A DNA stretch of 64,000 bases, from positions 5,177,501-5,241,500 of the forward strand of contig NZ_CP051680.1 in the NCBI RefSeq assembly GCF_012849095.1, written 5' to 3'. This DNA is from Cohnella herbarum. Lineage in GTDB: Bacteria; Bacillota; Bacilli; Paenibacillales; Paenibacillaceae. Positions 5,061 to 9,480 of this stretch are shown in pieces (position 1 is the first letter of the stretch; each line of letters begins with the position of its first letter). The notes below the pieces were generated by a model. It was given only the letters and a program-made list of their open reading frames with translations, did not search any database and was not told the DNA's origin. A program made the position numbers and the translations under genes.

Positions 5061-5092
5061 AGGGTTGGAGCTTTTATTTTGAGGTGTATACG

Positions 5093-6523
5093 ATGATGAA
5101 AGTAATTCGTAATGATAAGAGGCCGATCTGGCAGCAACTGCTTGATCAAGCGATTCATAATATAACTAACGGAATCTGGGCCCCTGGAGAATTGCTGATT
5201 CCTTCTCGCGAGCTTGCTCACATGGTAGGGGTCTCCCGCTCGACGATACAGATCGTCTACGAGGAATTGCTAAGTCGAGGCTACACGGTTACCTCTCGCC
5301 GGGGAGGAACGCGAGTAAGTCATTGGAAGCACGTCGCTAAGCCAACGAATGAAAACATGACAAATGGTCCCACTCCCCCCTCGCTTCCCTTGTTGGATTC
5401 GGCTGTAGATCTGTTGCATGACTGGTTCAGAGGCAAGGAACAGCGAAAAGCGGATATTGATTTTAGCCCCCATGAACCCTACTTGGATGGACAATTTCAA
5501 AAGAACTGGCGACAATCGCTTCTCCAAGCATCCGCCGATATGGATCTATCAAGCTGGGCTTACGGTAATCCCTATGGTTTTACGCCGTTACGCGAGGAAA
5601 TTCAGCGTTATTTATCGCTTGAACGAGGCATCCATATCCAAACAAACCAGATTCTATTAACCTCGGGAGCTCAACATAGCATTGACTTAATCGCACAATC
5701 GCTTTTAGCTGACGGCGACACCGTTTCCGTAGAAGATCCCGGTTTTCCGGCGGCCTGGATGGCGATGAAATATCGACGTATGAATGTGGTACCCGTTCCC
5801 GTTGATGAATACGGTCTAGTGGTTGAGCGTATTCACCCGCAATCCAAACTGATCTTTGCGACCCCCTCGCACCAGTGCGCGACCGGAGTCGTTATGTCGG
5901 AACCGCGCAGGCAACAATTGCTGCATAAGGCCGTTCAAGAACGACTTTGGATCATTGAGGACGATTATGATAGTGAATTTCGATATCGCGGGGAGCCGCT
6001 TCCAACTCTAATGAGCCAAGAACCGAATAATACCTTGTACCTAATGAGTTTCTCCAAAATGATCGCTCCAGGCATTCGTATTTCGTCAATCGTCGGCTCT
6101 AGCGAGGCAATCGCTCAACTAGCCAGGGTACAAGAGCTGACTTACCGTCACCTCCCGATTATGGACCAATTAACGCTAACCCACTTTATCAAGAACGGGC
6201 ATTTTATGCGCCATATGAGAAGAGTCAAAAATGTGTACCGACGAAGGCACGAAGCCATGACAAAGGCTGTTATGACTAGCGGTTTAGGGGAGCGTTTTAC
6301 GCTAAGCGGCGTAGAAACGGGATTGCATATGTTGCTTGAAGCCGAAGAGTCGTACGACGAAGAAGCCGTGACAATGTTAGCCCTTCGGGAAGGAATACGC
6401 GTGTACCCTCTTGGACCGTATTGTTTGGAAAGCAAAAGAAAAGGATGGGTGCTGGGGTTTGCGAAAGTAGATGAAGCATCGATCGACCAGGGGATTCATC
6501 GTCTCGCGAAGCTGATCTTGTAG
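5093..6523 (+). CDS. MocR/PdxR-type transcriptional regulator (GntR HTH plus aminotransferase fold)
   Basis: An N-terminal GntR winged helix (about residues 10-75: IWQQLLDQAIHN, SRELAHMVGVSRSTIQIVYE) is followed by a long fold-type I aminotransferase domain. The PLP-site markers are present: EDPGFPAAW, IEDDYDSEFRYRG and the Schiff-base lysine in MSFSKMIAPGIR. The length (about 476 residues) is typical of MocR proteins, which sense PLP or PLP adducts and no longer act as transaminases. GAGGTG at 5081-5086 sits correctly for the ATG at 5093, so I prefer it to the GTG at 5084. It is divergent from the PNPOx-like gene, its likely target. The PLP link is from family knowledge; the ligand is inferred. 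Confidence 0.87.
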   Translation: MMKVIRNDKRPIWQQLLDQAIHNITNGIWAPGELLIPSRELAHMVGVSRSTIQIVYEELLSRGYTVTSRRGGTRVSHWKHVAKPTNENMTNGPTPPSLPLLDSAVDLLHDWFRGKEQRKADIDFSPHEPYLDGQFQKNWRQSLLQASADMDLSSWAYGNPYGFTPLREEIQRYLSLERGIHIQTNQILLTSGAQHSIDLIAQSLLADGDTVSVEDPGFPAAWMAMKYRRMNVVPVPVDEYGLVVERIHPQSKLIFATPSHQCATGVVMSEPRRQQLLHKAVQERLWIIEDDYDSEFRYRGEPLPTLMSQEPNNTLYLMSFSKMIAPGIRISSIVGSSEAIAQLARVQELTYRHLPIMDQLTLTHFIKNGHFMRHMRRVKNVYRRRHEAMTKAVMTSGLGERFTLSGVETGLHMLLEAEESYDEEAVTMLALREGIRVYPLGPYCLESKRKGWVLGFAKVDEASIDQGIHRLAKLIL

Positions 6524-6627
6524 GGTTATCTTCGCAATCGCTTCATTCGAAGCAATCGAGACAAGTGACTTTCGGTCTAGAGAGCCTTTTACATCGAGAA
6601 TCAAATGTCGAAAAAAAAAATTTCCCA

Positions 6628-6655
6628 TTGCTATATTCAGAGTTTGTGATATTAT
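6628..6655 (+). promoter_or_regulatory. Candidate sigma-A promoter of the polyamine operon leader
   Basis: TTGCTA (6628-6633) and TATTAT (6650-6655) are separated by 16 bp. Transcription would begin near 6662, giving a leader of about 450 nt before the ATG at 7113. The call rests on consensus similarity alone. Confidence 0.4.
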
Positions 6656-6661
6656 GAGATT

Positions 6662-7063
6662 GCGTTATTGGAAAGCAGTTATTCAAAATATACGGAGCCT
6701 TTCCAAGCAGATAATTTTTGACCACTTCCGATAAGGAAGTTAAGGCCATACGGACAGCCGGGTCAAATGCCGACTGGCAACGTTAAGTTGCCTTATTGAT
6801 TGAGTTAAAAGCTCAAATTTTATGAGTTGGTTACTTTACAACCAGTGCATTCGCACACAACTTGTGAAACGGTCAATAAGAGTGGCATAGTGATTATTTG
6901 CTATTTAGACTCTGATTCGTTACTGATATATTTTGAATATTATTTAGCTTCCTTACAAAAGCTATGTCCCATTTGCGGGGACGTTTAATATTCGTATGTA
7001 TATCTAAACAAGTGTGATACGCGATGATGCGTTTTTACGACTTGTTTTTTTGTGCGTAAAAAC
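6662..7063 (+). ncRNA. Structured leader RNA upstream of the polyamine genes, candidate cis-regulator
   Basis: This 589-bp gap between genes has no coding potential but an unusual density of perfect complementary helices. They are: 6668-6675/6699-6706 (TTGGAAAG/CTTTCCAA); 6724-6729/6735-6740 (GATAA loop); 6775-6780-type GGCAAC/GTTGCC with a GTTAA loop; an 8-bp closing helix 6792-6799/6873-6880 (CTTATTGA/TCAATAAG). The last encloses helices 6800-6804/6812-6816, 6825-6829/6858-6862 and 6845-6848/6853-6856. Further helices are 6879-6883/6909-6913 and 6966-6970/6978-6982. An intrinsic terminator closes the region at 7006-7051. The layout resembles a riboswitch or other leader regulator. It matches no riboswitch core I know. 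An independent small RNA or a transposon-derived RNA remains possible. Confidence 0.5.
7006..7051 (+). terminator. Leader terminator before carboxynorspermidine synthase
   Basis: The stem AAACAAGT (7006-7013)/ACTTGTTT (7040-7047) runs into four more T residues. It lies 480 nt past the preceding gene but only about 60 nt before the next start codon, which fits transcription attenuation. The loop segment GTTTTTACG (7031-7039) is perfectly complementary to CGTAAAAAC (7055-7063), a competing helix once polymerase has passed. Confidence 0.65.
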
Positions 7064-7112
7064 TCATTCATCTGGACCCTCAAACAAATCTGAAAGCAAG
7101 GGAGATCGAGAA

Positions 7113-8351
7113 ATGGGAAAAGCGTTAGTCATCGGTTGCGGAGGAGTGGCATCGGTAGCCATCCATAAATGCGTTCAAAACAGCCAGGTTTTTGAAGAAA
7201 TCTGCATCGCGAGCCGGACCAAATCGAAATGCGATGCGTTAAAAGCACAGCTGGATGGCGGAAAAACGAAAATTACGACAGCCCAAGTGGATGCCAATAA
7301 TGTGGACGAGCTGATCGCTTTAATTAACGAGGTAAAACCGGATATCGTCATGAACTTGGCGTTGCCGTACCAGGATTTGACCATCATGGATGCCTGTCTG
7401 GCAACGAAAACCCACTATATGGACACGGCTAACTACGAGCCGGAAGATACCGCGAAGTTTGAATACAAATGGCAGTGGGATTACCGCGAACGCTTCGAGA
7501 AAGCCGGGATTACCGCTCTTCTAGGCAGCGGATTCGATCCGGGCGTCACGGGCGTATTCTCGGCTTACGCGCTCAAGCATTACTTCGACGAGATTGAGTA
7601 CATCGACATTCTGGACTGCAACGGCGGCGATCACGGCTATCCGTTCGCGACGAATTTCAATCCGGAGATCAATATCCGCGAAGTATCCGCCAACGGCAGA
7701 TATTGGGAGAACGGAGAATGGATCGAAACCAAGCCGATGGAAATCAAGCGCGAATATAACTTCGCCGAAGTTGGCCAGAAGGATATGTATTTGCTTTACC
7801 ATGAAGAGCTGGAATCCCTTGCGGTTAACATGCCGGGACTTAAGCGTATCCGCTTCTTCATGACATTCGGTCAAAGCTATCTGACTCACCTTAGAGCATT
7901 GGAGAACGTCGGAATGACTTCGATCGAGCCGATCGAGTTCGAAGGCAAGCAGATCATTCCTCTCCAGTTCTTAAAAGCCGTGTTGCCGGATCCCGCATCG
8001 CTGGGGCCGCGTACCGTCGGCAAAACGAATATCGGCTGCATTTTCCAAGGGAAAAAAGACGGCAAAGACAAAACATACTACGTGTACAATGTTTGCGACC
8101 ACCAAGCGTGCTACAGGGAAGTGGGCTCGCAAGCGATCTCTTATACGACCGGCGTTCCAGCCATGATCGGCGCGGCTATGGTCCTTACCGGCAAATGGAA
8201 CAAACCCGGCGTATACAACGTCGAAGAGTTCGATCCGGATCCGTTCATGGAAGAGTTGAACAAATGGGGACTTCCGTGGGTAGAAGACTTTAATCCTGTT
8301 CTGGTTGACGATGGTCAAGAGGCTCGTAAGCAACCGGCATTGGTTCGATAA
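7113..8351 (+). CDS. Carboxynorspermidine/carboxyspermidine synthase (saccharopine dehydrogenase family)
   Basis: This is a 412-residue protein of the saccharopine-dehydrogenase fold. The N-terminal Rossmann motif is ALVIGCGGVASVAIHKC, followed by CIASRTKSKCDALK. The family strings MNLALPYQDLTIMDACL and GFDPGVTGVFSAYALKHYF are present. The length and these blocks match carboxynorspermidine synthases, which reductively condense aspartate semialdehyde with a diamine to form carboxy-(nor)spermidine. The start at 7113 has GGGAG about 8 nt upstream; the upstream in-frame TTG/ATG region is not family-like. The next gene, one nucleotide away, is the matching decarboxylase, which supports the assignment over lysine-pathway saccharopine dehydrogenase. 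Diamine preference (putrescine or diaminopropane) cannot be read. Confidence 0.9.
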   Translation: MGKALVIGCGGVASVAIHKCVQNSQVFEEICIASRTKSKCDALKAQLDGGKTKITTAQVDANNVDELIALINEVKPDIVMNLALPYQDLTIMDACLATKTHYMDTANYEPEDTAKFEYKWQWDYRERFEKAGITALLGSGFDPGVTGVFSAYALKHYFDEIEYIDILDCNGGDHGYPFATNFNPEINIREVSANGRYWENGEWIETKPMEIKREYNFAEVGQKDMYLLYHEELESLAVNMPGLKRIRFFMTFGQSYLTHLRALENVGMTSIEPIEFEGKQIIPLQFLKAVLPDPASLGPRTVGKTNIGCIFQGKKDGKDKTYYVYNVCDHQACYREVGSQAISYTTGVPAMIGAAMVLTGKWNKPGVYNVEEFDPDPFMEELNKWGLPWVEDFNPVLVDDGQEARKQPALVR

Positions 8352-8352
8352 G

Positions 8353-9480
8353 ATGCGGTTTGACGAACTGCCAACGCCTTGTTTCGTCGTCGATGAAGCT
8401 CTCATCGAGAAAAATCTTAAAATCCTGAGCGGCGTGATGCAGCGAACGGGAGCAAAGATTATTTTGGCCCAAAAAGCATTCTCTATGACAACCTTTTACC
8501 CCCTCATCGGCGAATACTTGAACGGCACGACAGCTAGCGGCTTATTCGAAGCCCGATTAGGCCACGAGGAGATGGGCAAAGAAAACCACGTCTTTGCCCC
8601 CGCCTATCGGGAAGACGAGATCGATGAAATCATCTCCATCTGCGACCATATCATTTTTAATTCCTTCTCGCAGTTAGAGAAGTTTAAAGACAAGGCTCTT
8701 CAAGCCGGCCGGAAGATCGGCGTGCGCATCAACCCGGAATGCTCGACCCAGGTCGGCCACGAGATCTACGATCCGTGTTCGCCCGGCTCCCGGTTCGGGG
8801 TCAAACGGGAGGATTTCCGCCCGGACTTGCTGGACGGCGTATCAGGACTGCACTTCCACACCCTCTGCCAGCAGAATTCCGACGACTTGGAAACGACGCT
8901 GCGCGCGGTCGAAGAGAGGTTCGGAGAGTGGCTGCCGCAGATGGAATGGATCAACTTTGGCGGCGGCCACCATATCACGAGAGACGATTATGATCTCTCC
9001 ACCCTCGAAGCTTGTATTAAGCGGATGCAAGAAAAATATGGTCTAGAGGTTTATGTGGAACCAGGGGAAGCCGTAGCGCTCAACGCGGGTTACCTCATCA
9101 CCTCCGTGCTGGATCTTCATAAGAACGGAATCGATATCGCAATTCTCGATACCTCCGCGACTTGTCATATGCCGGACGTATTGGAAATGCCGTATCGTCC
9201 CCCCGTTCTGGAGTCGGGAGATCCCGGAGAGAAGCCGTTTACTTATCGACTGACAGGCCAAACCTGCCTCACGGGAGATGTAATCGGGGACTATTCGTTC
9301 GATCAACCGTTAAAGTGCGGCGATCGTATCGTGTTCGGAGATATGGCGATCTATTCCATGGTGAAGACCAACACATTTAACGGTATGGCGCTGCCGGCCA
9401 TTGCCGTTCAAAGCAAAGACGGCGATTGCAACGTGGTCCGCCAATTCGGCTATCAGGATTTTAAGACGCGACTAGCTTAG
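8353..9480 (+). CDS. nspC: Carboxynorspermidine/carboxyspermidine decarboxylase
   Basis: A 375-residue PLP-dependent decarboxylase of the alanine-racemase-like fold (group IV). The N-terminus TPCFVVDEALIEKNL and the PLP-lysine region KIILAQKAFS are characteristic. HFHTLCQQN, WINFGGGHHIT, YVEPGEAVALNAGY and the late DTSATCHMPDVLE block match NspC proteins. It removes the carboxyl group from carboxy-(nor)spermidine to give (nor)spermidine. The ATG at 8353 lies one base after the synthase stop, so translational coupling is likely; no strong Shine-Dalgarno site is visible. An earlier in-frame start (8305 or 8311) is possible but would lie inside the upstream gene. The pair makes this an S-adenosylmethionine-independent polyamine route. 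Confidence 0.92.
   Translation: MRFDELPTPCFVVDEALIEKNLKILSGVMQRTGAKIILAQKAFSMTTFYPLIGEYLNGTTASGLFEARLGHEEMGKENHVFAPAYREDEIDEIISICDHIIFNSFSQLEKFKDKALQAGRKIGVRINPECSTQVGHEIYDPCSPGSRFGVKREDFRPDLLDGVSGLHFHTLCQQNSDDLETTLRAVEERFGEWLPQMEWINFGGGHHITRDDYDLSTLEACIKRMQEKYGLEVYVEPGEAVALNAGYLITSVLDLHKNGIDIAILDTSATCHMPDVLEMPYRPPVLESGDPGEKPFTYRLTGQTCLTGDVIGDYSFDQPLKCGDRIVFGDMAIYSMVKTNTFNGMALPAIAVQSKDGDCNVVRQFGYQDFKTRLA

Follow-up and report, generated by a model that had tools for sequence, protein, structure and literature searches.

The window analysed here is a 64,000-nucleotide stretch of the Cohnella herbarum genome (contig NZ_CP051680.1, positions 5,177,501–5,241,500, forward strand), and coordinates below count from its first base. 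The gap between the end of a MocR/GntR-type gene (6523) and the start of a carboxy(nor)spermidine synthase/dehydrogenase (CASDH) gene (7113) consists of a strongly folded leader and a terminator; the structured part spans 6668–7051 and ends in the intrinsic terminator (Table 1). The CASDH product matches NF043000 with an E-value of 1.8e-124, at a score under the curated cut-off (416 of 800 bits), and is followed by a carboxy(nor)spermidine decarboxylase (NspC) gene. The product of the upstream gene (5084–6523) is MocR-like, combining a GntR-type regulator with an aminotransferase domain; among the clustered loci, only the window's own has such a neighbour. A spermidine synthase gene (SpeE) is present elsewhere in the Cohnella genome (G000:C1:5961856–5962653), and a search with the covariance model R1 (described below) finds a single copy of the leader RNA in this genome. 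Because SpeE lies elsewhere and the RNA occurs only at the window locus, two spermidine routes may coexist in this organism. The candidate promoter in front of the leader comes from a weak consensus scan (3 found vs 1.6 expected); a position test across homologues was uninformative, −10-like hexamers not being enriched (72 of 101 vs 62 in shuffled sequences).

Table 1. Coordinates of the leader RNA, its predicted parts and the adjacent genes within the window.
Feature	Position	Strand	Basis and remarks
Candidate sigma-70-type promoter	6628..6655	+	TTGCTA, 16 nt, TATTAT, TG before −10; consensus scan 9/12
P0 5' hairpin	6668-6675 UUGGAAAG / 6699-6706 CUUUCCAA	+	loop with CGGAG; own-versus-swapped arm test
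P1a 5' strand, CGGAG in P0 loop	6693..6697	+	would pair with CUCUG 6910-6914; read from sequence
Conserved RNA body, model R1 (219 positions, 51 bp)	6696..6913	+	224.8 bits, E 1.1e-56; window is one of the R1 seeds
P1b	6707-6715 / 6893-6901	+	two-sided changes in 9/9 pairs
P2	6718-6723 / 6761-6766	+	encloses P3 and core AAGGCCAUACGGACAGCC; two-sided changes 4/6
Match to Rfam RF02440, SpF59_sRNA (ldcC RNA)	6719..6773	+	75.4 bits, gathering 37.2, E 8.6e-12, model 1-54
P3	6724-6729 / 6735-6740	+	two-sided changes 6/6
P4 hairpin	6776..6792	+	two-sided changes 6/6
P5 closing helix	6794-6799 / 6873-6878	+	two-sided changes 3/6; 99.2% of cells paired (99 sequences)
P6 hairpin	6801-6804 / 6812-6815	+	two-sided changes 4/4
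P7	6822-6827 / 6860-6865	+	two-sided changes 4/6
P8	6829-6832 / 6840-6843	+	two-sided changes 3/4
P9	6845-6848 / 6853-6856	+	two-sided changes 4/4; only 69.6% of cells paired
Switching strand P9'/P7' (CACACAACUUGU), predicted antiterminator	6854..6865	+	complementary to terminator 5' arm
Linker with long hairpin, aptamer to terminator	6914..7005	+	part of 6914-7060, scored as a whole (z −3.93)
Intrinsic terminator	7006..7051	+	stem AACAAGU 7007-7013 / ACUUGUU 7040-7046, U-run 7045-7051; folding
First downstream gene, CASDH	7113..8351	+	NF043000, Pfam Sacchrp_dh domains
Second downstream gene, NspC	8353..9480	+	TIGR01047 496 bits, cut-off 409

The region 6694–6913 has a predicted folding energy of −67.7 kcal/mol compared with −48.1±4.2 for shuffled sequences (z = −4.64; 0/200), and the 3' part (6914–7060) is likewise more stable than expected. 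The conserved model R1 has nine helices; the conserved RNA begins slightly 5' of P1 with the P0 hairpin. Helix P1b closes a junction from which P2 (carrying P3 and the core), P4 and P5 emerge; P6 and P7 lie inside P5, and P8 and P9 inside P7. The preliminary description had drawn an 8 bp closing helix (6792–6799/6873–6880; CUUAUUGA/UCAAUAAG) around the multibranched core. This helix is present and its inner 6 bp are the conserved P5, but it is better taken as 6–7 bp since hairpin P4 ends on base 6792. The two arms of P0 fit each other better than when swapped between homologues (−7.4 vs −5.6 kcal/mol, z = −9.5, 0/5000; 94 distinct loci, with kinship ignored). Pairing of the P1a strand in the P0 loop with its 3' partner would form a pseudoknot with P0; many homologues have GAGUC-like and GACUC strings as the P1a partners, and a crude pattern finds a GAG-like string in the P0 loop of 63 of the 94 loci. 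Within the linker, a hairpin GUCCC...GGGAC at 6964–6984 is stable and lies inside a longer stem.

The core is almost identical across the 24 rows of alignment A1, a constancy that arises partly from selection because 16 nt of the core served to choose most of the set; hits from the sampled genomes were not picked in this way. Other contacts of the core are invariant in the set, so that covariation is uninformative there, and a CGG/CCG hairpin in the minimum free energy prediction of the core was rejected as unsupported, its last base being variable. Two positions ahead of the GCCG motif, base 6767 and its equivalents are A in 36 of 37 CASDH-linked and 13 of 13 PotA-linked leaders but C in 27 of 31 leaders of Orn/Lys/Arg decarboxylase genes; SpeD-linked leaders are mixed (12 A, 16 C). 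The split could mark subclasses of ligand or affinity, or phylogeny only. Six PotA-linked leaders (L027, L045, L060, L111, L119 and L129) have an extra hairpin directly 3' of the UGCCG segment.

Covariation was examined in the window together with 99 of 209 collected loci searched with R1. Close duplicates among the Bacilli, chance hits and some of the cut-off loci are not in this set, in which every sequence but L141 matched (99 of 100). Two-sided changes occur in 43 of the 51 pairs compared with 21.6 in shuffled alignments, and 92.6% of cells are paired compared with 81.5% when shuffled and 36–42% for slid structures, in an alignment of 99 sequences that is itself fitted to R1. In the unfitted MAFFT alignment A1 (24 seeds) the values are 90.5% paired and 20 of 51 two-sided (11.8 shuffled). 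P5 is near-invariant in A1, and as P5 and P7 hardly vary there, their support comes mainly from diverged members. The fold covaries in both alignments, and the 5' leader contains a conserved, covarying, aptamer-like RNA of the kind expected of a riboswitch. Conservation tracks base pairs, and this bears on a model in which translation of a SpeFL- or OrnL-like leader peptide governs attenuation, which we consider very unlikely: leader peptides do control polyamine and ornithine genes in some bacteria, but no ORF of 5–60 codons with a Shine-Dalgarno-like motif was found in window positions 6656–7112, and the AUG in the core is kept as AUG in only 49 of the 116 homologues read.

An Rfam search, as had been suggested, gives RF02440 as the only match in 6500–7200 at E-values up to 1. 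The window matches the whole 54-nt model well over the gathering score, although the model spans no more than the core of a conserved RNA that is ~220–250 nt long; P2, P3 and the core are included, and P0, P1, P4–P9, the terminator and the antiterminator are not. The preliminary description recognised no riboswitch core, but a known model does fit 6719–6773. Several established classes were considered and rejected: there is no covariance-model match to a T-box in the leader, no SAM-clan match (as for a SAM-I variant) in 6500–7200 at E-values up to 1, and no match to raiA/ModT at E-values up to 1 in the window leader or at gathering score in 18 related loci.

Of 299 genomes sampled from the class, 24 contain RF02440, including the window's own; R1 hits are found in 25 of the 398 phylum genomes and in 58 of the 197 from the family. 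Each listed positive genome has one match, both in the class search with RF02440 and in the phylum and family searches with R1. A scan of GTDB contigs with the exact 16-nt core string yielded at least 118 stretches; of the 118 listed, 95 show nhmmer homology to the leader, in many cases along almost all of it, one more from Facklamia (L142) is matched by R1, and the other 22 are taken as chance matches. The setting of L141 looks similar to that of the other loci, without an R1 match. A scan of viral sequences gave 12 loci, none of which has the RNA by nhmmer. Relatives are found in Bacilli, Clostridia and Negativicutes (Paenibacillus, Bacillus, Neobacillus, Kurthia, Lachnospiraceae, Oscillospiraceae, Faecalibacterium, Acidaminococcus and Phascolarctobacterium). 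The Facklamia copy is diverged, as are those in two metagenome-assembled genomes assigned to Synergistaceae (L122) and Spirochaetes (L086) that may be mis-binned. One plasmid record contains the RNA, and it is a 2.7-Mb Paenibacillus replicon.

The gene context of the RNA is strongly constrained. A polyamine gene lies directly downstream on the same strand in all 114 testable loci (119 nhmmer hits less five that are cut too short downstream), with CASDH in 37, an Orn/Lys/Arg decarboxylase in 32, SpeD in 31 and PotA in 14. The gene starts no more than 455 nt from the end of the match (median 83 nt), and in none of the 114 loci does an ORF of at least 80 aa lie wholly between the two. The same genes occur within 700 nt upstream in one locus. 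A polyamine gene also follows in 55 of 55 loci found with R1, namely 25 from the phylum search (E = 8e-5 at worst) and the 30 top-ranked of 58 from the family search, a set that overlaps the first in Paenibacillaceae genomes. Genes further downstream include NspC, SpeE, agmatinase and PotB/C-like permeases, with gene cluster names resting on ten representatives, and no upstream gene family is shared among the 120 loci beyond eight close relatives. Such a consistent link to the genes of one metabolite is characteristic of riboswitches.

Two further explanations are bounded by this context. The preliminary description had offered a stand-alone non-coding RNA or an IS605-type relic as alternatives, and a transposon-derived or stand-alone RNA (an IS605-type guide RNA relic, or one resembling raiA or OLE) would suit the large size and high conservation; however, the RNA has a single copy in this genome, one match in each listed positive genome and a fixed polyamine gene context, RF02440 is the sole Rfam family recovered at E-values up to 1 and raiA (RF03072) is unmatched, so that neither alternative is supported and an origin of this kind is extremely unlikely. 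It is also quite improbable that the RNA is a trans-acting sRNA, for which the terminated leader would be the functional product and the downstream genes incidental. Rfam does file RF02440 as an sRNA gene (class Gene; sRNA) and not as a cis-regulator, the pneumococcal papers, in the portions available, file the RNA likewise, and a discrete transcript is reported from pneumococcus; but the same-strand position ahead of polyamine genes holds in 114/114 and 55/55 loci, and the terminator arm covaries with the aptamer (see below), both features of a cis-acting switch. An additional trans role beside a cis switch may exist.

The converse association is incomplete. Among the 197 family genomes, all 58 that contain the RNA have NspC over the cut-off, 1449–1533 nt downstream and on the same strand, whereas NspC is present in 90 and the RNA is missing from 32 of these; the operon can therefore do without the leader RNA. 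Seven such loci (L210–L216) have a CASDH-kind ORF together with NspC; Rfam finds no match in them, and their R1 hits are no better than E = 0.03. Since the operon is present there without the leader RNA or any Rfam match, another control likely acts on it. These seven loci, all from genomes of the family Paenibacillaceae, have mostly higher-scoring NspC.

The terminator (7006–7047 without the rest of its U-run) lies 61 nt upstream of the CASDH start codon (ATG at 7113) and some 483 nt past the upstream ORF end at 6523, in agreement with the distances of ~60 and ~480 nt given earlier. A consensus terminator scan does not list 7006–7047, probably on account of its long loop, although folding predicts the terminator clearly. 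Terminators are present in the 3' flank of 101 of 106 homologues (103 of 108 by a looser criterion), where shuffled sequences predict 5.0; in the 5' region, 15 of 102 loci have one. Five of the 106 loci have none detected in the 3' flank. The 5' arm of the terminator often has CAAGU, CAAGC or CAGGU, after which comes a sequence partly complementary to the P9 3' arm of the same leader. The duplex of P9'/P7' with the terminator arm has energies of −13.9 kcal/mol for own pairs, −11.7 for swapped and −6.4 for shuffled pairs, with z = −9.3 (0/5000) for own versus swapped in 94 distinct pairs, relatedness being only partly corrected. Of 15 offsets along the RNA, the two centred on P9'/P7' have z of about −9, an overlapping neighbour −3.9, and the other twelve −2.1 to +1.6; within two groups defined by core sequence, which together comprise 67 of the 94, the z values are −3.5 for one (23 loci) and −2.5 for the other (44 loci). 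For the window itself, 6860–6865 pairs with 7008–7013, and a bulged extension lengthens this duplex on its upstream side. Some members have only a weak antiterminator, such as L122 (−2.3 kcal/mol).

In a pseudoknot-free model of the window leader, the best fold before synthesis of the terminator 3' arm is −101.7 kcal/mol and the antiterminator fold −97.4, a difference of 4.3; with the 3' arm included these become −115.0 and −102.2, a difference of 12.8. With its conserved terminator and antiterminator, the leader has an expression platform that is mutually exclusive with the aptamer, another hallmark of riboswitches, and the modelled terminator/antiterminator logic is that of an OFF switch. 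Similar anatomy would be seen in protein-dependent attenuation, in which an RNA-binding regulator, with PyrR- or LicT-like logic, senses polyamine or nitrogen state and selects between terminator and antiterminator. Direct binding of a ligand by the RNA is something we infer; we regard the protein-dependent reading as unlikely: known antiterminator-protein sites need far less RNA than ~220 nt, the complex multi-junction fold far exceeds such needs, and no upstream gene family is common to the loci beyond the eight close relatives.

Comparison of the homologues shows a conserved body (P1b–P9) with a 5' hairpin, an exclusive link to genes of polyamine synthesis and uptake in the tested loci, a conserved terminator, and a conserved and mutually exclusive pairing between the P9'/P7' strand and the 5' arm of the terminator. 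The reading favoured in the preliminary description, a ligand-sensing and possibly polyamine-responsive leader, gains support from the covariation, the gene context and the conserved terminator with its covarying antiterminator. On these comparative grounds we consider it quite probable that the leader acts in cis to attenuate transcription in response to polyamine, most likely as a riboswitch to which spermidine binds directly and which switches the operon off. At low polyamine levels, the P9'/P7' strand would pair with the nascent 5' arm of the terminator and transcription would proceed. When polyamine is plentiful, the ligand would bind and stabilise the aptamer, P7 and P9 would retain the switching strand, and the terminator would form and stop transcription before the gene. 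The ligand is probably spermidine, which is favoured as the common product of the CASDH/NspC and SpeD/SpeE routes and a cargo of Pot uptake; SAM, dcSAM, MTA and agmatine are each confined to a subset of these routes.

A probable counterpart has been described in pneumococcus. The transcript SN20/srn235 (869478–869791/804), with a terminator marked, lies just before SP0916 (PMC2887815, PMC12323649); SN20 extends over 869478–869791 and M7, srn235 and F59 reach 869804, between SP0915 and SP0916. This is the locus of F59 (PMC3395615), and the tie to F59 rests on the Rfam name and the published position. SN20 was guessed to be a possible FMN switch from a shared motif (PMC2887815). SP0916 encodes arginine decarboxylase (PMC7990898). 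According to the available portions of the published reports, deletion of potABCD raises SP_0916 16.9-fold and SP_0918 14.4-fold by qRT-PCR, although the same genes are not differentially expressed in RNA-seq (PMC8540371). The transport inhibitor AMXT 1501 raises five polyamine genes 1.4–1.9-fold, an effect that is not specific since 544 genes change overall (PMC10887117), and a speE deletion has higher arginine decarboxylase protein (reviewed in PMC7990898). Expression falls in other circumstances: two polyamine genes are down 1.5-fold with DFMO, polyamine-synthesis proteins are lowered by SP_0916 deletion (PMC10887117), and loss of putrescine synthesis lowers expression of transport and spermidine synthesis (reviewed in PMC7990898). 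Simple feedback predicts none of these three falls, and the pneumococcal expression data fit feedback repression only in part.

Polyamines are among the most abundant RNA-bound metabolites, and the one validated bacterial class in the literature found is a rare SAM-I variant, whose authors expect more (PMC10853860). The leader described here is a candidate for a widespread class of polyamine riboswitch, judged from comparative evidence, with its core already in Rfam under an sRNA label. It is a strong candidate, ready to test in cultured soil bacteria such as Paenibacillus, with sequence, fold, switching strand and terminator defined. If this is correct, polyamine homeostasis in streptococci and in many Clostridia of the gut would gain a mechanism of feedback, and the pneumococcal "sRNA" would be reassigned as a cis-regulator. 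An identification of this leader RNA as a polyamine riboswitch was not found in the open-licence PMC literature, and in the accessible sections of the RNA-discovery surveys examined for polyamine terms only PMC8632094 has them, for other motifs.

Several known systems share some of these properties. The raiA motif/ModT RNA (RF03072; PMC11706538) is similar in its length of ~210 nt, very high primary sequence conservation and pseudoknots (PMC11751092, PMC11706538), but is described in the portions available without a downstream expression platform (PMC11751092), whereas the leader RNA has a terminator switch and fixed target genes. The potE and odc1 motifs are likewise candidate elements before polyamine genes (PMC8632094) but are set apart by their descriptions: potE is without an obvious platform or good covariation, and odc1, from alpha-proteobacteria, combines a hairpin with a pseudoknot and is classed as a uORF element, as given in the accessible text. 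The spermidine riboswitch of Salvail et al. (2023; PMC10853860) also precedes polyamine genes (ldcC, speE, speB) and is also a terminator-based OFF switch, but it has a SAM-I aptamer and is described as rare, with 13 representatives aligned, and the leader reported here is a different RNA. There is a good chance that this leader represents a second, unrelated and far more widespread class of polyamine riboswitch, of ~250 nt and with its own architecture, that would sense spermidine in Bacilli, Clostridia, Negativicutes and scattered phyla, would gate polyamine synthesis and uptake through the P9'/P7' antiterminator, and would correspond to the misfiled pneumococcal 'sRNA' F59/SN20/srn235.
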